Assembly: GCA_002909145.1 (NCBI GenBank)
Contig: PNQY01000043.1
Location: forward strand, 1-64,000
Reading direction: 5' to 3'
Length of the DNA stretch: 64,000 bases
From: Candidatus Thioglobus perditus
GTDB taxonomy: Bacteria; Pseudomonadota; Gammaproteobacteria; PS1; Pseudothioglobaceae
Part shown: positions 14,173 to 57,528 of the stretch, in pieces
How positions within the stretch are numbered: the stretch's first letter is position 1
How the letters are laid out: each line of letters begins with the position of its first letter
The notes under the pieces: generated by a model
Told to the model about the DNA's origin: nothing
Databases searched by the model: none
What the model saw: the letters and a program-made list of their open reading frames with translations, nothing else
Translations under genes and position numbers: made by a program

Positions 14173-15308
14173 TTTTTAGAAAAGTAAACTTTAATATCAC
14201 CAAAAATATCTAGCTTATTAACCGTTTCTTTAAGTTTAGCTAGGATTTCATCATGGCTTTTATCATTCTCAAGACAACTAAGTGGCAGGTAGAAATCAAT
14301 ATGGATTTTGCCATCAAGATAGTGCAGTTGGATTCTTTCAATATCGCCGTCGCACTTGTTATTGAACAATGACTTTGTAAGAATTCCTAAAGCCTCAGCA
14401 CGCTCAGGAAGTTTTGCATATGGGACAGTGGTTTCATCATCTTCAGGGTCGATATGTACAGTTACATCAGTTAAATCCTCTAAGCACTCTTTAGCAACAC
14501 GCTCAACACTTACGCTAATAATATGTCCCTCACTTACACTTAAAAATGGATCAACCTGCACGTGTACGTCTGCTGAGATGGTGTGACCAATTTTACGTGT
14601 ACGTAATGAATGTACGCTAGTAACTCCACTAATTTGCCCTATAGAATGCCTTAGGCTTTCAATATGCTCTACATCAATAGATGTATCAACTAATTCCTTA
14701 GTGGCTCCAATACCAAGCTCCCAGGCAATGTAGATTACCATTAGTCCAACTACAATAGCAGCAACACTGTCTAAGTATAAATAGCCATTTAAACTACCCA
14801 AGATACCAATAAACACCACGATTGAAGACAATGCATCTGAGCGGTGATGCCAAGCATTGGCTTTCAGCATAGATGATTTATAAGTTTTCGCAACTTTTAA
14901 TGTATACCAATATAGTGCTTCTTTTGACAATATTGATAAAGCAGCAATACTAAGTAATAAAGTTCCATTAGTTAAAGCAACTGGGCTTGATAATCTATCG
15001 AAAGCATCAAAAACAATTCCAGTACCAATAATTGCCAGAATAATTGCCAATCCAAGTGTGGCAACAGTTTCAAACCTTTCGTGTCCGTACGGGTGTTCAT
15101 CATCCGCCTCTTCACTAGAGTGTTTAGCAGCATAGAGTACTACGCCATCTGATAATAAATCAGAGAACGAGTGAATACCATCGGCAATTAAAGCTCCAGA
15201 GTTACCAATAAGACCAACAACAACTTTAAATACTGCCAATACAAAATCAACTACAGCGCCAACTATAGTAACTTTTTGACTAGCTTTTGCACGATGAACT
15301 GAATTCAA
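14169..15308 (-). CDS. Cation diffusion facilitator (FieF/CDF family) metal exporter
   Basis: The 379-residue protein is a proton-coupled divalent metal exporter of the CDF family. The first ~200 residues form six transmembrane helices with the metal-site motifs ADGIHSFSDLLSD (TM2) and HHRSDALSS (TM5). The rest is the cytoplasmic ferredoxin-like domain, with an HSLRTRKIGHTISADVHV strand and an extra C-terminal region of about 90 residues beyond short FieF proteins. The substrate (Fe, Zn, Mn) cannot be told. The location beside the Feo/FTR1 iron island makes iron efflux plausible but unproven. Confidence 0.88.
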   Translation of the reverse strand: MNSVHRAKASQKVTIVGAVVDFVLAVFKVVVGLIGNSGALIADGIHSFSDLLSDGVVLYAAKHSSEEADDEHPYGHERFETVATLGLAIILAIIGTGIVFDAFDRLSSPVALTNGTLLLSIAALSILSKEALYWYTLKVAKTYKSSMLKANAWHHRSDALSSIVVFIGILGSLNGYLYLDSVAAIVVGLMVIYIAWELGIGATKELVDTSIDVEHIESLRHSIGQISGVTSVHSLRTRKIGHTISADVHVQVDPFLSVSEGHIISVSVERVAKECLEDLTDVTVHIDPEDDETTVPYAKLPERAEALGILTKSLFNNKCDGDIERIQLHYLDGKIHIDFYLPLSCLENDKSHDEILAKLKETVNKLDIFGDIKVYFSKN

Positions 15309-15489
15309 TTAGGTAAATACCATTAATGATTATTCTCTCATTTTATGCCATCTATTTGTAAATATGTATTAAACAGTTTTATCTATAAATCTTAGTTAAT
15401 TTTTAATGAAAAAAATACAAGTTAACAATAATTTGTTTTTAAACTATTGACCTTGTTGGTTTAATCGGCAGCCCACATCTCTCTATATT

Positions 15490-15573
15490 AAAAATTATAA
15501 TATTATTGCAAATGCAAATGAGAACGTGTATCATTTGCAAAATATTTCAATTTTCAATAATATTATAATTTTT
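15490..15573. repeat. Nested inverted repeats at the feoA promoter
   Basis: A 19-bp arm, AAAAATTATAATATTATTG at 15490-15508, is repeated as its exact reverse complement at 15555-15573, directly against the feoA ATG. Between the arms lies the Fur-box palindrome (15511-15541). The whole 84-bp block is therefore two nested palindromes. The right arm occupies the place of a ribosome binding site, and no Shine-Dalgarno sequence is visible before the ATG at 15574. Confidence 0.8.
15511..15541. promoter_or_regulatory. Fur box upstream of feoA
   Basis: The core TGAGAACGTGTATCA is close to the 7-1-7 Fur consensus (TGATAATnATTATCA) and sits in a longer palindrome with outer arms AATGCAAATGA and TCATTTGCA. 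Apart from one base (G for T) and the outermost bases it matches the palindrome at 18022-18052 upstream of the FTR1 gene. It lies 33 bp before the feoA ATG, a repressing position. Confidence 0.8.
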
Positions 15574-15795
15574 ATGAACTTATTATCAGAGCAAGTAGTT
15601 GGCTGTCAGTGCATGATTAATGACATTGACCTGCCTTATTCTAAAAAAATTAGACTCTTGGGTCTAGGTGTAAATTCCGGCTCTCAGGTTTCTATATTGA
15701 GAAATAGAGGTGGTGATGTTGTATTAGCAATGGGCAATGCTCGAGTAAGTGTTGGAAGAACAATTGCAAATTTTGTTAAGGTGACAGTATTATGA
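15574..15795 (+). CDS. feoA: Ferrous iron transport accessory protein FeoA
   Basis: FeoA is a small SH3-like cytosolic protein required for FeoB function. The ATG at 15574 gives 73 residues beginning MNLLSEQVVG, which fits the family (about 75-85 residues). An in-frame GTG at 15526 would start inside the Fur box and is rejected. Features include IRLLGLGVNSGSQVSILRN and a C-terminal VSVGRTIANFVKV. It overlaps feoB by 4 bp (ATGA). Confidence 0.9.
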   Translation: MNLLSEQVVGCQCMINDIDLPYSKKIRLLGLGVNSGSQVSILRNRGGDVVLAMGNARVSVGRTIANFVKVTVL

Positions 15796-17984
15796 GCTTC
15801 AAAAAAGTAGCGCTTATTGGTAATCCAAATTCTGGAAAAACAACTCTTTTTAACTTGCTTACTGGCGCCAAACAGCGTACTGGAAACTGGCCAGGAGTAA
15901 CTGTTGACAGGAAAGAAGGTGAGTTTGGTATGGGTGACAAATCATACGAAATTGTGGACCTTCCTGGTGTTTATTCTATTGATGATAAAGATTCATCTAT
16001 TGATGAGCAAATTGCACGTGATTTTGCACTAAATAATTCTGACTACCTGTATTTTAATATTGTTGATGCTTCAACTTTAGAACGCGGACTATATCTCACA
16101 ACTCAATTAAGAGAGATGGGTGTGAACATTGTTGTGTTACTTAATATGATGGATATTGTTAAAAAGCGCGACATGGAGATTGACGTTGAAAAACTAAAGC
16201 AGTCTCTTGGTTGTGATGTTTTGCCAATTTCATTAAAAGAAGATGTTGACTTGTCTGTACTTTCTAAGGAAATTGATAGTTTTGATTCGGTAGAAAAAAT
16301 AACAATTAATTATCCTACTGCACAGATTAAATCGGCAAAAGATAATGATGATGATAAGCAAGTTGAGTTATTAGAAGCTGAGGCGAGATTCAATCATGCA
16401 AATCAAATAGCGACTGATGTAATTAAACATGAGTCAGATATTAAAAAAACTCTTTCTGACAAAGTTGATAAGCTGGTTCTAGGTCCAATGACCGGCATAC
16501 CTTTTTTTCTAGTGGTGATGTATTTACTATTTTTAATAAGTATTAATTTTGGTGGTGCATTAATTGATTTTTTTGATATAGCTGCTGGAGTTATATTTAT
16601 TGATGGTGTAGCACAGATACTTAATAGTATTGGCGCACCAGAATTTATAACAGTAATTATTGCTGATGGTGTAGGTGGTGGCGTCCAAGTGGTAGCTACT
16701 TTTATTCCTATTATTGCGGCATTATATTTGTTCCTGACTCTACTAGAAGAAGTTGGTTATATGGCAAGGGCTGCATTTGTAATGGACCAATTTATGCGCA
16801 AAATTGGCCTTTCAGGTAAGGCATTTATTCCACTAATTGTTGGTTTTGGGTGTAATGTTCCTGGCATTATGGCAGCCCGTACTCTTGATACTCATCGTGA
16901 GCGTATTACTACAGTGTTAATGTCGCCATTTATGTCATGTGGCGCAAGGCTTGCAGTGTATGCATTATTTGCTGCTGCATTTTTCCCAGTTGGCGGTCAA
17001 AACATTGTATTTGCTTTGTATATTATTGGAGTTTTATTCGCAGTGTTTACCGGATTAATTCTAAAGCGTGCATTTAAAGGTGGTGCAGATACTAGTGATT
17101 TTTTAATGGAAATGCCAAACTACCAACTGCCTGCATTTAGAAATTTAATGATTAATACTTGGAACAAGCTTAAGGGGTTTGTTCTAGGCGCTGGTAAGAT
17201 TATTGTGCTTGTAGTTATGGTTATTAATGTTGTTAATAGCTTTGGAACTGATGGCAGTTTTGGTAATCAAGACTCGAAAGACTCAATGCTTAGTAAGGTT
17301 GCACAAACACTAACCCCAGCATTTAAACCAATGGGTATTGAGGAAGATAACTGGCCAGCAACTGTTGGTATTGTTACTGGCATTTTGGCAAAAGAAGTTG
17401 TAGTTGGCACACTTGATTCGCTATATTCAAGTATTGATGAGCAAGAATCTAATGTTGAAGAACAGCAGGCTGAATATAGTCTAGTTGGCGGGCTGGAAGA
17501 AGCGCTTTCAACAATTCCTGTTAACGTTTCTGATGCATTGCAAAATCTTTCAGATCCATTGGGGCTTAGTGTTTTGGATGACACTCACTCACAAGAATTG
17601 GCAGCAGAATCTCAAGAGGTATCAACTGCAACATTCGGAGCCATGGTTTCACGCTTTGATGGCAAGGTTGGAGCTTTTGCATACCTGTTATTTATCTTGC
17701 TGTACTTTCCATGTGTTGCAGCTTTTGGCGCAATGATTCGTGAAGTTGGTAAGAGTTGGGCTATAGTAGGAGCCTTATGGGCAACTGGGTTGGCATATTT
17801 TTCAGCAACGGTTTTTTATCAAGTAGGTACGTTTGCACAACATCCAGAATCTTCACTATTGTGGATTAGTGTTTCTATTGGTATTTTGATAGCATCAGTT
17901 ACTATGCTTATGCGTACAGGTAAAAAAGCTAGAGGTATGGTTATACCAATAACCACCGAAACTCAGTGTAAACATTGTAAATAG
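15792..17984 (+). CDS. feoB: Ferrous iron transporter FeoB
   Basis: FeoB imports Fe(II) across the inner membrane using an N-terminal G domain. The protein has 730 residues. G1 is GNPNSGKT at residues 10-17, the G2 region is GNWPGVTVD, G3 is DLPGVYS and G4 is NMMD. The membrane part has the paired Gate motifs with conserved cysteines (FGCNVPGIMAAR; PFMSCGARLAVY) and LYFPCVAAFGAM. It ends in a CKHCK dithiol motif. No feoC follows. It is translationally coupled to feoA behind a Fur box. A damaged copy of its 3' end lies at 18931-19213. Confidence 0.96.
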   Translation: MSFKKVALIGNPNSGKTTLFNLLTGAKQRTGNWPGVTVDRKEGEFGMGDKSYEIVDLPGVYSIDDKDSSIDEQIARDFALNNSDYLYFNIVDASTLERGLYLTTQLREMGVNIVVLLNMMDIVKKRDMEIDVEKLKQSLGCDVLPISLKEDVDLSVLSKEIDSFDSVEKITINYPTAQIKSAKDNDDDKQVELLEAEARFNHANQIATDVIKHESDIKKTLSDKVDKLVLGPMTGIPFFLVVMYLLFLISINFGGALIDFFDIAAGVIFIDGVAQILNSIGAPEFITVIIADGVGGGVQVVATFIPIIAALYLFLTLLEEVGYMARAAFVMDQFMRKIGLSGKAFIPLIVGFGCNVPGIMAARTLDTHRERITTVLMSPFMSCGARLAVYALFAAAFFPVGGQNIVFALYIIGVLFAVFTGLILKRAFKGGADTSDFLMEMPNYQLPAFRNLMINTWNKLKGFVLGAGKIIVLVVMVINVVNSFGTDGSFGNQDSKDSMLSKVAQTLTPAFKPMGIEEDNWPATVGIVTGILAKEVVVGTLDSLYSSIDEQESNVEEQQAEYSLVGGLEEALSTIPVNVSDALQNLSDPLGLSVLDDTHSQELAAESQEVSTATFGAMVSRFDGKVGAFAYLLFILLYFPCVAAFGAMIREVGKSWAIVGALWATGLAYFSATVFYQVGTFAQHPESSLLWISVSIGILIASVTMLMRTGKKARGMVIPITTETQCKHCK

Positions 17985-18021
17985 CTCCTTTTTATTAGTA
18001 TATTTTTTTAATAAGGATGAT

Positions 18022-18052
18022 AATGCAAATGATAACGTGTATCATTTGCATT
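18022..18052. promoter_or_regulatory. Fur box upstream of the FTR1 permease gene
   Basis: This is a perfect 13+5+13 palindrome: AATGCAAATGATA-acgtg-TATCATTTGCATT. The central TGATAACGTGTATCA fits the 7-1-7 Fur consensus. It is the near-identical partner of the feoA site. It lies 52 bp before the FTR1-type gene start, so feoAB and this permease appear to be separate Fur-controlled transcripts. Confidence 0.85.
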
Positions 18053-18103
18053 GTTGTTTAGTTTAACTTTTAAAAATAAAATACTAATTTAGGAGAAAGT
18101 AAG

Positions 18104-18928
18104 ATGGATCAAATGCCAAGTTTTATCATGGGTTTTAGAGAGGGATTAGAGGCTTTTCTATTAATCGCTATTGTTTTGCAATATATTGCAAAAACAGGGC
18201 AAATTAAATTAAAGAATAAAATTACCCAGGGTGCTACAACGGGTGTTGCCGTTTCTATTGTCCTGGGTTTATTGTTAAGTCGATTTTCTGAATATCTAGG
18301 TGGTGTTTCAAGTTTAACGAAATTATGGGAAAGTGTGGCTAGTATAGTGGCTCTAATGCTTGTTTCTGTTTTTATCATCTGGATGATTCGTAATGGCACC
18401 AACATGACTCAACATGTTAAAGATAAGGTGGGAGAGAATATTTCTGCTGGCGCTTTATTTTGGATTTCATTTATTATTATTGCTCGAGAGGGTACTGAAG
18501 TTGCTATCTTCTCATTTGCAGGTAAATATCCTTTTGATATTGTCATTATGGGTGTTTTGTCTGCATTGGCATTATCTGTTTTAATTTTTTATTCGCTGAT
18601 CAAAATCAATCTGTCTCTATTATTTAAGATTACATTGGCTTATTTGATTTTGCAGGCTGGATTCTTGTTGGGGTATTCGCTGCATGAAGGTTTTTCAGCA
18701 TTAAAAGGCTACGGCATGATTGCGCCAGACAGCCTTGTTTTTGATAAAGCTTTCAATGTTGCATCAACCATATTTAGCCATAAAAATGGCGTTCTAGGAA
18801 TTCCGCTACATGTGCTATTTGGTTGGTATTCTAAGCCTGAATGGATTCAGTTTATCGTGCAGTATTTGTTTACATTTGCCATGTTTAGCTACTGGATTTC
18901 ACATAATAAAAAGACAGTAATAAGTTAG
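18104..18928 (+). CDS. FTR1-family iron permease (EfeU-like)
   Basis: FTR1/EfeU proteins are high-affinity iron permeases, normally Fe(III) coupled to oxidation. The 274-residue protein has about seven transmembrane helices and the two diagnostic REXXE iron-binding motifs: REGLE at residues 12-16 in the first helix and REGTE at 128-132. A good Shine-Dalgarno (AGGAGA) precedes the ATG. The usual partners, efeO and efeB or a multicopper oxidase, are not adjacent. It is preceded by a Fur box and followed 2 bp later by the feoB remnant. Confidence 0.9.
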   Translation: MDQMPSFIMGFREGLEAFLLIAIVLQYIAKTGQIKLKNKITQGATTGVAVSIVLGLLLSRFSEYLGGVSSLTKLWESVASIVALMLVSVFIIWMIRNGTNMTQHVKDKVGENISAGALFWISFIIIAREGTEVAIFSFAGKYPFDIVIMGVLSALALSVLIFYSLIKINLSLLFKITLAYLILQAGFLLGYSLHEGFSALKGYGMIAPDSLVFDKAFNVASTIFSHKNGVLGIPLHVLFGWYSKPEWIQFIVQYLFTFAMFSYWISHNKKTVIS

Positions 18929-18930
18929 TC

Positions 18931-19213
18931 GTTGTAATTGGCACACTTGATTCGCTATATTCAAGTATTGATGAACAAGAATCTAATGTTGAAGAACAGC
19001 AGGCTGAATATAGTCTAGTTGGCATATTTTTCAGCAACGGTTTTTTATCAAGTAGGTACGTTTGCACAACATCCAGAATCTTCACTATTGTGGATTAGTG
19101 TTTCTATTGGTATTTTGATAGCATCAGTTACTATGATTATGCGTACAGGTAAAAAAGCTAGAGGTATGGTTATACCAATAACCACCGAAACTTAGTGTAA
19201 ACATTGTAAGTAG
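18931..19213 (+). pseudogene. Duplicated, internally deleted 3' fragment of feoB
   Basis: This stretch copies feoB nearly base for base. 18931-19020 matches 17397-17486 and 19018-19213 matches 17789-17984. The missing 305 bp of feoB lie between two copies of GTTGGC (17484-17489 and 17789-17794), of which one remains at the junction (19018-19023). So the copy lost its middle by deletion between short direct repeats. I count about five substitutions in about 283 bp, one of which (CAG to TAG) puts a stop where feoB has Gln. There is no start codon or ribosome binding site. It is a recent remnant and not a functional gene. Confidence 0.93.
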
Positions 19214-19300
19214 TTTGTATTCGTCTATATTATGTATTAATAATGTAATAAAAGTGTAATTTGTATTCCCTTAAAGTTTGTGTTAGTATTATTTCAAATA

Positions 19301-19314
19301 TTGATTTAAGTCAA
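19301..19314. promoter_or_regulatory. FNR/DNR-type box upstream of the diheme cytochrome gene
   Basis: TTGATTTAAGTCAA matches the FNR-family pattern TTGAT-N4-(A/G)TCAA and differs by one spacer base from the box upstream of nosZ. Its centre (19307.5) is only 37 bp before the ATG, too close for ordinary class II activation with a normal leader. It may act as a repressor site or in a way not evident from sequence. Confidence 0.55.
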
Positions 19315-19344
19315 TATGTTAAAAGAAAACCTGGGGGGGGTGAT

Positions 19345-20361
19345 ATGAAAATAAATTTTTTGAGTAGTAAAAACAGGGCGGTTGTTTTAGGAGTTGCTAT
19401 GGTGGGTATGTCGTTTGGTTCTATAACCAACGCATATAATCATACTAAATCTGGTGACCCCGGTTCAATTACCGCAGTAGATTTGATTGGTCAATGGGTC
19501 GGTGCAGGCGCGCCAAATTCGGATTTCACTTATACCGATGTTTCTGGAAAACAGTATCAAGCTTCTTTTGATAAAGATATTCTAACTTTATTTACTAAAA
19601 GTGGTAAATGGCATAAGAATCAACAATCTTGTGCCAGTTGTCACTTTTCTAATGGTGAGAACTCATTCCATGAAATGGATTTATCCTCATATGAAGGCTT
19701 AATGCGTGGCGGCGATGTTTTATCTAAACCGCCTGGGGTGCCACTATTCGGAGAGACTGCAATTGGAGACACTAACTATGATTGGGAACACTCTAAACTA
19801 AAAGCTCGTATGCGTGATAACCGTATGCCACCAGGGTGGACGTTTGATATTACTGAAGCTAATCGTGACGGTCCATGTGTAGATATGAGTGCATCTGGTG
19901 CGCAAGTGGTTACAGAGGGACATGGTTTGAAATATGGTTGTGATAATAATGCTCTCGGCTTGATTGGTGCTTGGGTTGGTGCTGGCGCCCCTGAGCATAA
20001 GGAGTTCGCTTACGGTGGTGGTGTAGCTGATTTTGATAGGGATGTTTTACCATTCTTTACTAAAGCAGGCACTTGGTTCCCGAATTCGCAATCTTGTGGT
20101 TCGTGTCACTTCGGCAACATTGAAAGCTCATTCCATGAAATGGATCTAACTTCTTATAAAGGTTTGATGCGCGGCGGTGATGTGATTTCTAAGCCTCCAG
20201 GCGTTCCATTATTTGGTGAATCGGTGATTGGTGCTAAAGATTATGATTGGGGTCACTCTAAGATGAAAGGACGTTTGCGTAATAACCGTATGCCACCAGG
20301 AATTTCATTTGATATTACTGAAGCTAATCGTGATGGGCCATTGATTAATCCAGCACATTAA
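19345..20361 (+). CDS. Tandem-duplicated diheme cytochrome c, secreted
   Basis: The 338-residue protein starts at the ATG at 19345 (after a G8 ribosome binding site), with a signal peptide of about 30 residues ending near TNAYN. Two homologous halves follow. Each has an IGxWVGAGAP start, one haem c site (C96ASCH and C251GSCH), FHEMDL, LMRGGDV, KPPGVPLFGE and NRMPPG, and ends in FDITEANRDGP. Each half binds one haem; the Met of RMPPG is a candidate distal ligand. I do not recognise the family. The export signal, haem sites and an FNR-type box point to a periplasmic electron carrier or redox enzyme used under low oxygen. A terminator follows. Confidence 0.8.
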   Translation: MKINFLSSKNRAVVLGVAMVGMSFGSITNAYNHTKSGDPGSITAVDLIGQWVGAGAPNSDFTYTDVSGKQYQASFDKDILTLFTKSGKWHKNQQSCASCHFSNGENSFHEMDLSSYEGLMRGGDVLSKPPGVPLFGETAIGDTNYDWEHSKLKARMRDNRMPPGWTFDITEANRDGPCVDMSASGAQVVTEGHGLKYGCDNNALGLIGAWVGAGAPEHKEFAYGGGVADFDRDVLPFFTKAGTWFPNSQSCGSCHFGNIESSFHEMDLTSYKGLMRGGDVISKPPGVPLFGESVIGAKDYDWGHSKMKGRLRNNRMPPGISFDITEANRDGPLINPAH

Positions 20362-20378
20362 CCTTTAGTTATTTTTTA

Positions 20379-20412
20379 AAAACCTGCATTTTAAACACTG
20401 CAGGTTTTTTTT
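20379..20412 (+). terminator. Intrinsic terminator after the diheme cytochrome gene
   Basis: AACCTGCA at 20381-20388 pairs with TGCAGGTT at 20399-20406 around a 10-nt loop and runs into T8. This is a clear Rho-independent terminator separating the cytochrome gene from the propeller gene. Confidence 0.9.
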
Positions 20413-20417
20413 ATTTA

Positions 20418-21572
20418 ATGAAAAAACTACCAATGAAAAGATTACAAACAATTTTATTAATAACTGGTTTTTATGCTGCCTCTGTTTTTGCAAATTCTCA
20501 TATTGCAAAAGAGATTTTTCAGCCAGTATGGATATTTAAACAAAGTAGTCTTCCATTTCACACTGCACCCATTATTTACAACAATCAAGTGTTTGCTTTG
20601 CCAAAAAATGGCAATATTGTTTCAGTGGCATTAGATAGTGGAAAAAAATTATGGTCAAAAAGTTATAAAAAAGGCATATGGGAGCGCTCACTTTCCACTG
20701 GAAAAGATAACATTTATTATGGCACTAGAGATAAGCAGTTGTGTGCTTTAAAGGCAAGAACAGGTCGTAAAGTTTGGTGTATAAAGCTACCTAAAAATAT
20801 ACAAAGGGCGCCTTTAGAGCATAATAATCAATTGTATGTTGTTACGGCTGAGTTGGGTCCAGGGCTAAATGGAGATAAAACCAAAGGCGGTAGTATTTAT
20901 GCACTTGAAATAGAATCTGGCAAGGTTGTTTGGCACAGGGAAACAAATAACTATGCCATGCAGTCACCTGTTGTTCAAGGTGATACACTTTATGTAGCGG
21001 GCAGTTATGACGATCCTTCAGTTGATATTGACGAAGGAGGGCCGGCTTCTATTATTGCACTAGAGGCTAACAATGGTAATAAAAAATGGCAGTTTTTTTC
21101 AGAAGATGGATTTATTAAGGCGATTTATACCACTGACGATTTTCTCGCATTTGTAGGTTACCAGGATTTTATTAGCGGCCTAAATACACAGACAGGAGAG
21201 TTATTATGGAGACGTGATAGTGGTAATTGGGTGCCTGCTGTCAGTGGTTATAAAGATACAATTTATTATGGATCTGCTAATACCAAAGTGCACGCCTGGA
21301 ATATCTCTGATGGTGAAACCTTATGGGAATTTAGTATTAAAAATGGCTCGTTTAATTACACACTAGATGCCCCTATTAGGGTTGGTGAATATTTATTCTT
21401 TTTAACTCAAAGAGGGGGGCTGATTGTATTGAATGCACAAACTGGGAGAGCTATGGTTCATCGACAAACTGGATTAAAAGCCCATATCGGTCTAGCTACA
21501 GATGGAAAGTGGGTAATTGTTGGTGATTCGACTGGTGTTATTTATGCATATAATGTGGATAAATTATTGTAA
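20418..21572 (+). CDS. Secreted PQQ-like beta-propeller protein
   Basis: The 384-residue protein has a Sec signal peptide (cleavage near VFA-NS, residues about 25-27). It then has about seven repeats of the PQQ-propeller blade type, each ending in a G-x-x-x-W strand (GKKLWSK, GRKVWCI, GKVVWHR, NKKWQFF, GELLWRR, GETLWEF). Proteins of this build include BamB and quinoprotein dehydrogenases. The catalytic residues and PQQ-cysteine pair of dehydrogenases are not evident, so a binding or scaffold role is likelier. The start could be 20433 (Met6). It begins directly after a terminator, so it has its own promoter or depends on readthrough. Confidence 0.7.
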   Translation: MKKLPMKRLQTILLITGFYAASVFANSHIAKEIFQPVWIFKQSSLPFHTAPIIYNNQVFALPKNGNIVSVALDSGKKLWSKSYKKGIWERSLSTGKDNIYYGTRDKQLCALKARTGRKVWCIKLPKNIQRAPLEHNNQLYVVTAELGPGLNGDKTKGGSIYALEIESGKVVWHRETNNYAMQSPVVQGDTLYVAGSYDDPSVDIDEGGPASIIALEANNGNKKWQFFSEDGFIKAIYTTDDFLAFVGYQDFISGLNTQTGELLWRRDSGNWVPAVSGYKDTIYYGSANTKVHAWNISDGETLWEFSIKNGSFNYTLDAPIRVGEYLFFLTQRGGLIVLNAQTGRAMVHRQTGLKAHIGLATDGKWVIVGDSTGVIYAYNVDKLL

Positions 21573-21776
21573 GTAAGCGATACAACACCTAGTTTTAGGC
21601 CGCTGATTCTCGTAGTGTGGGTTTCCCTGTGTTTTTTTGACCTTCTTCTATTATGTGCTCTTACTGAATCTTGTTTAAATTATAATAATAGCAGTGTTTG
21701 GATATAAATGAAAATACTACCGTAAAGGCGTTTAGTCAGTAAAATACTCTTAATTATTAAGGATATTTTAAGCGTC

Positions 21777-22961
21777 ATGAGCGAATCGTTATCAAGCATT
21801 AAAGGGATTAGTTGTGCAGCAATCAATGCTAGCATCAAAAACAATGACGCGCTAGATTTATCGGTTGTGTCACTTGTGCCCGGCACAACTACAGCAGGAG
21901 TATTTACCCAAAATGTATTTTGCGCTGCACCCGTTGTGGTGGCAAAAAACCATCTACAGCAAACACCATTAGCGTTACTGATTAATAGTGGCAATGCTAA
22001 TGCTGGTACTGGTACACAGGGTATGGAGAATACGCTTAAGACTTGTGAGCTGCTAGCTAATGATCTTGGTATTAAAATTGAGCAGGTGTTGCCATTTTCA
22101 ACAGGAGTTATTGGTCAGCAATTGAATCTGTCAAAATTTGAAGAAGGTATTCCTAAAGTTACCACTCAATTGTCGGGTGTTAATTTGGCACAAGTAGCCA
22201 AAGGCATTCTAACCACTGATCTGGTTGAAAAAACCATTTCAAAGCAGTTTAATATTAATGGTGAGACTGTTACTATTACGGGCATTGCAAAAGGCTCTGG
22301 CATGATTCGGCCTAATATGGCTACTATGCTTAGTTTTATTTTTACAGATTTGAAAGCTACCCAAGATCAGTTGCAAGCGTGCCTAACGACAGCAACTAAC
22401 CAATCCTTTAATCGAATTACGGTGGATGGTGATACCTCTACGAATGATGCTTGTACCTTGAGTGCTACTGGCACGAGTGGTGTTAGTATCGATGAATGTG
22501 AGGCTGAATTCCAGCAAGTGTTAAATACAGTCACAAAAGCACTAGCGCACAAAATTATCAAAGATGGCGAAGGGGCAACTAAATTTGTTGAAGTGTGCGT
22601 TAAAGGCGGTTCAAGCAATGAAGATTGTTTAGAAGTGGCTTATACTGTGGCACATTCGCCATTGGTTAAAACTGCGCTATTTGCAAGTGATGCAAATTGG
22701 GGTAGGATTTTGGCAGCAGTGGGGCGTGCCAATATTGCCAATCTTAACATTGAAGATATTAATATTTATTTAAATAATGTTAGTATCGTTAAGTCTGGTG
22801 AGCCTGATGCGAGCTATACTGAACAAGCAGGTAGTGCTGAGATGGTCAAAGAAAATATTGTAATTACCATCGAGATCGGTACAAGCGATGCGCAAGAAAG
22901 CGTATGGACTACTGATTTTTCTTATGATTATGTCAAAATTAATGCAGAGTACAGGACATGA
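21777..22961 (+). CDS. argJ: Bifunctional ornithine acetyltransferase / N-acetylglutamate synthase
   Basis: ArgJ recycles the acetyl group in arginine synthesis. It moves acetyl from N-acetylornithine to glutamate, and in bifunctional forms also uses acetyl-CoA. The 394 residues contain NSGNANAGTG, the self-cleavage region KGSGMIRPNMATMLSF (cleavage before the Thr of ATML, about residue 189), and the C-terminal SDANWGRILAAVGRA. The last 4 bp overlap purU. Mono- versus bifunctionality cannot be decided from sequence alone. Confidence 0.96.
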   Translation: MSESLSSIKGISCAAINASIKNNDALDLSVVSLVPGTTTAGVFTQNVFCAAPVVVAKNHLQQTPLALLINSGNANAGTGTQGMENTLKTCELLANDLGIKIEQVLPFSTGVIGQQLNLSKFEEGIPKVTTQLSGVNLAQVAKGILTTDLVEKTISKQFNINGETVTITGIAKGSGMIRPNMATMLSFIFTDLKATQDQLQACLTTATNQSFNRITVDGDTSTNDACTLSATGTSGVSIDECEAEFQQVLNTVTKALAHKIIKDGEGATKFVEVCVKGGSSNEDCLEVAYTVAHSPLVKTALFASDANWGRILAAVGRANIANLNIEDINIYLNNVSIVKSGEPDASYTEQAGSAEMVKENIVITIEIGTSDAQESVWTTDFSYDYVKINAEYRT

Positions 22962-30683: not shown

Positions 30684-30697
30684 TTGATATAAGTCAA
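30684..30697 (+). promoter_or_regulatory. FNR/DNR-type activator box of the nos operon
   Basis: TTGATATAAGTCAA fits TTGAT-N4-RTCAA. Its centre is 32 bp from the centre of a good -10 hexamer, TAGAAT at 30720-30725, which is the class II (-41.5) arrangement. Predicted transcription start is about 30732, giving a leader of roughly 108 nt before nosZ. Confidence 0.8.
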
Positions 30698-56620: not shown

Positions 56621-57313
56621 ATGAGTTTAGAAAACTTTTTATTTGGAGTTTATCCATATATAGCAGGCGTAGTATTTATTTTAGGTAGCTGGATTCGTTT
56701 TGATCGAGAGCAGTATACTTGGAAGGCTGATTCATCTCAGTTACTGGGTAACAAAGGCATGGTATTAGCCAGTAATTTATTCCATATTGGTGTTTTGGGT
56801 ATCTTCTTTGGTCATGCAGCAGGTATGTTATTACCGCATAGCTGGTGGCAGTTAGTTGCAACTGATGTTCAACATCAGTACATTGCAATTTACGCAGGTA
56901 TGGTTTTTGGCGGTTTGGCAGCAATTGGTGCGGCACTTCTTTTCTATCGTCGTATGACAAATGATAGGGTTAAGTCTGTAAGTCGTTTTAGAGATAATTT
57001 TGTGATCTTTTGGTTGCTAGCAACAGCACTATTAGGTTTGAACACAATTTCAGGATCTATGCATCATGCAGCAGATGGAGATGTAACAATTATGCTAACT
57101 TTAGCTGAATATGTGAAATCAATTGCAACATTGAGTGTTGATCCATCATTACTTGCAGGTGTGCCACATACTTATAAATTGCATATGCTATTTGGTATGA
57201 CGCTATTTTTAGTGTTTCCATTTACACGTTTAGTACACGTTTGGTCAGTGCCACTTACATATTTGATGCGTCCTTATCAAATTGTTAGAAGAAAGCGTAT
57301 GAGGACTAATTGA
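56621..57313 (+). CDS. narI: Respiratory nitrate reductase gamma subunit
   Basis: NarI is the diheme cytochrome b that oxidises quinol at the membrane. The 230 residues have five transmembrane helices. Haem-ligand His pairs are in NLFHIGVLGIFFGHAAGM and in YKLHMLFGMTLFLVFPFTRLVHVWSVP. Its TGA overlaps the TTG start of the next small gene. Confidence 0.96.
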   Translation: MSLENFLFGVYPYIAGVVFILGSWIRFDREQYTWKADSSQLLGNKGMVLASNLFHIGVLGIFFGHAAGMLLPHSWWQLVATDVQHQYIAIYAGMVFGGLAAIGAALLFYRRMTNDRVKSVSRFRDNFVIFWLLATALLGLNTISGSMHHAADGDVTIMLTLAEYVKSIATLSVDPSLLAGVPHTYKLHMLFGMTLFLVFPFTRLVHVWSVPLTYLMRPYQIVRRKRMRTN

Positions 57314-57528
57314 TTACAATCAATGATAAATATTTCTTTATGAGCTATTATTACGACAATGTAGTTAAGATGGAGCGAATGGGGGTTAGCAATAACTACA
57401 TCCAGGGATGGATTGCTGGTTATCTTAAAAATCCTGAGGTTGAAAAGCAAAGAATAACTAGTGAATATAAGGCTGGTTATGAAGATGGTAAGCAGAAAAT
57501 AGATACCAACTTTTCAAATTTTTGTTAA
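57310..57528 (+). CDS. Small unknown protein in the nar operon
   Basis: Not recognised. The 72-residue reading starts with TTG at 57310, overlapping the narI stop, with GAGGA at a fitting distance; an ATG at 57343 is an alternative but has no ribosome binding site. The product is soluble with a helical VSNNYIQGWIAGYL segment, a repeated small-residue motif (SEYKAGYEDGKQ) and a C-terminal Cys. Its position between narI and the DsrC-family gene suggests a function in the same operon. Confidence 0.55.
   Translation: MITINDKYFFMSYYYDNVVKMERMGVSNNYIQGWIAGYLKNPEVEKQRITSEYKAGYEDGKQKIDTNFSNFC

Follow-up and report, generated by a model that had tools for sequence, protein, structure and literature searches.

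The window, as we term the whole stretch of 64,000 nucleotides that was analyzed, contains a gene for a FoxE-related diheme c-type cytochrome at positions 19345 to 20361. All coordinates given below for the window are on the forward strand. The open reading frame starts with an ATG at 19345, its stop codon ends at 20361, and the product is 338 amino acids in length with an N-terminus that, judged by eye, is a plausible Sec signal peptide. It is followed by a gene for a PQQ-type β-propeller in the position of foxY (20418 to 21572); this protein is probably secreted, and its AlphaFold2 model has a mean pLDDT of 86. Upstream of the cytochrome lie feoB (15792 to 17984), an FTR1/EfeU-type permease (18104 to 18928), and a remnant of the 3′ end of a second feoB (18931 to 19266).

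Among the other open reading frames of the window, we read a form II RuBisCO, a nosZ-like gene and the cluster to which it belongs, a cluster for a nar-type nitrate reductase, and small cytochromes. The host genome, with an assembly of 1.59 Mb, contains dsrA above the model cutoff. The host is probably a marine sulfur oxidizer, and this gene content would fit a sulfur oxidizer of the SUP05/Thioglobaceae type.

Anatomy of the Cytochrome

The cytochrome is composed of two heme units. Unit 1 (residues 45–177; 19477 to 19875) consists of a W-x-x-G-A helix followed by the motifs F-DIL-LF, CxxCH, NRMPPG, and FDITEANRDGP, and the same order of motifs is found in unit 2 (residues 203–331; 19951 to 20337). 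The heme-binding motifs are CASCH in unit 1 (residues 96–100; 19630 to 19644) and CGSCH in unit 2 (residues 251–255; 20095 to 20109). Met161 (19825 to 19827) and Met316 (20290 to 20292), each within an NRMPPG motif, are the putative heme ligands; both are invariant in the eight proteins of this type (hereafter window-type), and each is aligned with one of the two axial methionines of FoxE. The two units are joined by a linker loop (19876 to 19941) containing Cys178 and Cys199, which may form a disulfide. This pair of cysteines is found in seven of the eight window-type proteins and is absent from that of locus L006.

A preliminary description of this DNA had proposed a tandem-duplicated diheme c-type cytochrome with long shared stretches and one CxxCH in each half, and both points were confirmed. 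Each half has a single copy of LMRGGDV, KPPGVPLFGE, and FDITEANRDGP. The local alignment of the two halves was determined to have a score of 482, relative to a best score of 53 from 500 shuffles, and the identity between the two heme units is 69.7%. An AlphaFold2 model of the cytochrome that was built from the alignment was set aside (mean pLDDT of 56, with low values around the heme motifs); a search of the PDB with this model returned no match at E ≤ 0.001.

A weak FNR-like box, TTGATTTAAGTCAA, is found at 19301 to 19314, approximately 30 bases ahead of the start codon of the cytochrome. It has one mismatch to TTGATNNNNATCAA and resembles the box TTGATATAAGTCAA at 30684, upstream of the nosZ-like gene. 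The presence of the box agrees with the preliminary description, whereas the use under low oxygen that was suggested from it is weakly supported. Ten such boxes were counted in the window, where 6.89 ± 2.69 are expected, and 10 or more were obtained in 14 of 100 shuffles. The boxes are therefore not in excess, and this one was rejected as strong evidence. Of the seven other full-length window-type genes, one (L002) has upstream of it a similar box, matching at 9 or 10 of 10 positions, and the regulatory claim is therefore weak. Elsewhere in the window, a perfect TTGAT-N4-ATCAA box is found at 57310 to 57323, at the end of a narI-like gene.

Relationship to FoxE

The only PDB sequence matched by the cytochrome at E ≤ 10 is FoxE (5MAB/5MVO), with E = 2.3e-16 for a single-sequence phmmer search and E = 1.1e-21 for a profile constructed from eight relatives. 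The earlier statement that the protein fits no cytochrome family must therefore be abandoned. The family was not obvious because Pfam and NCBIfam contain no model for this cytochrome and return only subthreshold matches to CxxCH. From its sequence, the protein is a clear homolog of FoxE, which Pereira et al. 2017 name a "putative iron oxidase" in their title. Several of the features of FoxE proper are lacking, and a FoxE-related protein of new architecture is thus a fair reading.

The window cytochrome and the FoxE from Rhodobacter ferrooxidans SW2 both possess two CxxCH hemes and two downstream RMPxG methionines, and the unit sequence FHE-L-L-YEG-M-G-D and the middle W-x-x-AGAPN helix of FoxE are shared with the window type. 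The propeller gene is downstream of the cytochrome gene at this locus, as it is in the foxEYZ operon. However, the identity of the two whole proteins is 30% over 242 amino acids, and the halves of SW2 FoxE are 36% identical to one another (36–38% among FoxE-type proteins), whereas those of the window-type proteins are 66–90% identical. At the window locus, no foxZ adjoins the propeller, and the next gene is argJ.

The order of elements in FoxE is heme 1, Met 1, W-helix, heme 2, Met 2, W-helix, and Cys, whereas the window-type order is W-helix, heme 1, Met 1, W-helix, heme 2, and Met 2. A C-terminal W-x-x-G-A helix after the second methionine is found in all six FoxE-type proteins examined and in none of the eight window-type proteins, where this helix is N-terminal. 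An excerpt of PMC10654088 gives the disulfide of FoxE as Cys80–Cys258 in the numbering of 5MAB (chain positions 112 and 290). Both cysteines are conserved in 6/6 FoxE-type and 0/8 window-type proteins; the window cytochrome has Tyr116 at the first site and no residue at the second. The same excerpt names the RMPxG methionines as the axial ligands of FoxE and reports, from a comparison of 5MAB with a Rhodoferax FoxE model, that each serves the heme of the other half. The spacings in that account agree with those that we counted in 5MAB.

Pairs of genes resembling foxEY are described for Rhodocyclales, Burkholderiales, and Rhodospirillaceae, mostly without foxZ, in the part of PMC10654088 that was available. 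They resemble the pair in the window in the absence of foxZ and in their spread by transfer. The window type may already be among the hits named foxE.

Single-heme cytochromes of about 130–170 amino acids, found in the class to which genome G175 belongs, correspond to one unit of the same plan, with the motifs F-DV-PIL, CxxCH, GL-L-SYEGLMKGT, RMPHN, and W-x-QGAK. They differ in having one heme and a helix that is C-terminal. Within this class, 38 of 48 genomes match a FoxE profile, mostly through a single-unit cytochrome of this length (loci L021–L046). At L009, one of the related loci, a single-heme cytochrome of the same unit plan (2054 to 2476) is located just after the cytochrome–propeller pair.

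Origin of the Two Halves

Both units of the window cytochrome resemble the second unit of FoxE more closely than the first, with bit scores of 47.8 versus 11.5 for unit 1 and 53.7 versus 8.3 for unit 2. A tree was calculated from 40 units: 16 from window-type proteins, 12 from FoxE-type proteins, and 12 from single-heme cytochromes, the latter being the first 12 with an RMPH motif among those extracted from L021–L046. The cytochrome of L009, which is cut by the end of the contig, is absent from the alignment and the trees, and the FoxE of L013 (from G195) is absent from the trees. All of the window-type units form one clade with support of 100/100. Within this clade, the N- and C-terminal units group by organism, and a single clade of window-type N-terminal units was rejected (AU p = 1.6e-6). 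A clade uniting them with the N-terminal units of FoxE was also rejected (p = 9.7e-6). It is firmly established that the N-terminal units of the window type are not those of FoxE.

The window-type units are nested inside the second units of FoxE with support of 91/85 when the single-heme outgroup is included, a tree that drew a program warning about the meeting of long branches, and with support of 59/71 without this outgroup. In the tree without the outgroup, the second units of FoxE as one clade were not rejected (p = 0.35); in the tree with the outgroup, units 1 and 2 of FoxE as one group were marginally not rejected (p = 0.058). The nesting within FoxE second units is thus weakly supported.

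Since the halves group by organism rather than by position, they have apparently undergone concerted evolution. The agreement at four-fold sites between the halves of L006–L008 is 0.66–0.81, relative to 0.35–0.42 by chance, and we take this as the mark of recent conversion. The corresponding value for the window halves is 0.48 (23 sites), relative to 0.33 by chance; this is not a clear rise, and recent conversion was not shown for the copy in the window. We read the origin of the window type as a duplication of the FoxE "helix + heme 2" unit that was followed by concerted evolution. It could also be supposed that the protein is an ortholog of FoxE whose N-terminal unit was overwritten by conversion from the C-terminal unit, with no separate duplication. 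The homogenized units within each protein and the four-fold agreement in L006–L008 speak for such an origin, but conversion alone does not account for a W-x-x-G-A helix that is N-terminal instead of C-terminal, and the four-fold identity in the window gene is not clearly raised, and we consider it unlikely. This alternative addresses the origin only and would be compatible with any of the functions considered below.

Distribution and History of the Locus

Eight loci with close relatives of the cytochrome were found in a scan of genome contigs. All are from MAGs: one each of uncultured Pseudomonadales, SAR324, Deltaproteobacteria, Proteobacteria, and Thalassospiraceae, and three of Rhodospirillaceae. 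The neighborhoods in the Deltaproteobacteria and Proteobacteria MAGs match that of the SAR324 MAG. The open reading frames of these SAR324-type loci include genes for b561-like and small c-type cytochromes that follow the pair on the opposite strand (L003, 11083 to 13394; L004, 11198 to 13695; L005, 9392 to 11823), and small cytochromes resembling them can be read at L108 (4 to 886), from a genome of the window's family. L007 and L008 are from the Rhodospirillaceae MAGs NORP128 and NORP116, where NORP presumably denotes North Pond. For the North Pond aquifer, an excerpt of PMC8446621 ties foxE to Rhodospirillaceae.

Among 83 genomes of the window's family, the cytochrome was found in that of the window itself and in no other (1/49 among the more complete genomes). 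A viral origin was rejected, since the 16 pattern matches in viral contigs include no relatives, and carriage on a plasmid was set aside after the plasmid search returned no match.

The site that is occupied by the pair is empty in other members of the family. FTR1 was matched in 16 other genomes of the family; in 13 of these it adjoins argJ, and all 13 are without the cytochrome. By subtraction of coordinates, the gap between FTR1 and argJ is 101–176 bases in 12 of these genomes and 1186 bases in one. In the window, this gap is 2848 bases and holds the feoB remnant and the cytochrome–propeller pair. The order CDF–FTR1–argJ, with ruvC beside CDF, was confirmed in L104, L105, and L110. Other genomes of the family have feoB at the CDF–argJ site, and by open reading frames G061 has an iron-type ABC transporter there; the pair was therefore gained at a variable iron-transport locus. 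The CDF–argJ interval (15300 to 21777 in the window) contains feoB, FTR1, or an iron-type ABC transporter, depending on the genome.

The feoB remnant between FTR1 and the cytochrome is 98% and 91% identical in nucleotide sequence to 17397–17489 and 17789–18042, respectively; its divergence from the intact feoB reaches 9%, and it is a recombination scar at the insertion site. The cytochrome has a G + C content of 42.1%, compared with 36.8% in the propeller and 37.1% in the window as a whole; composition therefore argues neither for nor against transfer. The distribution of the pair and the empty site in relatives indicate that it was apparently acquired by gene transfer.

The Propeller

The propeller gene is directly downstream of the cytochrome in the window and in all eight of the related loci, and the two genes therefore constitute one unit. 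The earlier suggestion that the neighboring PQQ-like propeller is the partner of the cytochrome was thus borne out. A propeller is likewise found beside true FoxE in two gammaproteobacterial genomes, in the same order as foxE–foxY. The window propeller is 32–40% identical to the propellers of the related loci and 23–24% identical (E about 1e-15) to those beside true FoxE in these two genomes.

The model of the window propeller resembles BamB and other eight-bladed PQQ-fold propellers in fold, with a TM score of about 0.7. However, the identity is 16–20% for the BamB rows of the structure search, the score of 110.5 bits is below the BamB model cutoff of 285.2, and the window-type propeller, unlike BamB, is always paired with the cytochrome. 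Tetrathionate hydrolase is also among the structural neighbors, a resemblance of fold only. A search of the host genome for PqqE gave a top score of 83.6 bits against a cutoff of 381, and no control genome exceeded this cutoff either. We think it more probable that the propeller serves in docking or assembly, without PQQ, than that it is an enzyme.

Discussion

The homology to FoxE suggests a role in the periplasmic entry of single electrons, most likely from Fe(II). We offer as a tentative proposal, somewhat short of an even chance, that the cytochrome, derived from FoxE, serves as an entry point for electrons in the periplasm, with Fe(II) as the probable donor. It would be a periplasmic diheme cytochrome c with two copies of the second heme unit of FoxE that are kept alike by concerted evolution, and it would be encoded alongside a PQQ-fold propeller that stands in place of FoxY. 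Periplasmic Fe(II) would be oxidized at one or both hemes, each held by the histidine of CxxCH and the methionine of NRMPPG, and the propeller would dock either the cytochrome or its electron partner. The electrons would then enter the pool of soluble cytochrome c and continue to oxygen, nitrate, or N2O in a sulfur-oxidizing autotroph.

The assignment of iron is favored by FoxE as the sole match in the PDB, the shared RMPxG methionines, and the conserved position of the propeller, in the order of foxE–foxY. It is also favored by the form II RuBisCO, nosZ-like, and nar-type genes of the window together with dsrA in the genome, and by an insertion point that is an iron-transport locus. In R. capsulatus, the expression of FoxEYZ tied it to Fe(II) oxidation (PMC3753534), and a Rhodoferax with foxEY grows on Fe(II) and carries genes for nitrate reductase, thiosulfate oxidation, and CbbM (PMC8552755), a gene set similar to that of the window host. 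The authors of the latter study state that it is unclear which homolog acts on iron. Arguing against iron, the disulfide cysteines, the C-terminal helix, and the first unit that are specific to FoxE are all absent, the propeller is only about 23% identical to those beside true FoxE, and no foxZ-like gene adjoins the pair. Moreover, feoB and FTR1 are native to the family and do not travel with the pair, and FoxE itself is called "putative".

The losses relative to FoxE would be accommodated if the protein were a FoxE-derived periplasmic carrier whose donor is not iron, either a general shuttle or an entry point for sulfur or another inorganic donor, the link to iron having been lost together with the first unit of FoxE. 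The host, with dsrA, is probably a sulfur oxidizer, and tetrathionate hydrolase is found with BamB among the structural neighbors of the propeller, although this is a resemblance of fold only. However, both units are descended from, or were converted to, a FoxE-like heme unit, and the cytochrome–propeller pair has been preserved as in foxEY. A donor other than iron is possible, but we think it rather doubtful.

In yeast, Fet3 oxidizes iron for Ftr1. A comparable ferroxidase for iron uptake or detoxification, oxidizing periplasmic Fe(II) for the adjoining FTR1-type permease and not for energy, could be imagined from the FTR1 and feoB genes that flank the pair, but is very improbable given the 13 family genomes with FTR1 beside argJ and no cytochrome, and the eight related loci, in which neither FTR1 nor FeoB was found by tblastn. 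Several genomes of the family have feoB at this locus, and elsewhere it is not linked to the cytochrome, and FTR1 is the native neighbor of argJ in relatives without the cytochrome. Since neither travels with the pair, FTR1 and FeoB were rejected as functional partners, and their adjacency is best read from these comparisons as an accident of the insertion site.

Searches of the main texts of open-license PMC papers showed neither a FoxE of this duplicated type nor any FoxE in SUP05. The oxidation of iron by SUP05 has been proposed for hydrothermal plumes in PMC9123188, an excerpt of which gives Cyc2, Pio, and MtrCAB as missing and the hints as not yet conclusive. The FoxE-derived cytochrome–propeller pair in what is apparently the SUP05 family provides one gene pair with which iron oxidation can be tested. 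The permuted double FoxE unit would also be a simpler system for establishing which heme of FoxE does what and whether the swapped methionine ligation is needed. More speculatively, and with less confidence than we attach to the proposal above, a pseudo-symmetric, circularly permuted FoxE that concerted evolution keeps symmetric might constitute, in several lineages of marine bacteria, a second class of Fe(II) oxidase in the periplasm; with Fe(II) as the donor, at least one sulfur oxidizer of the SUP05 type would then be able to respire nitrate, N2O, or oxygen.
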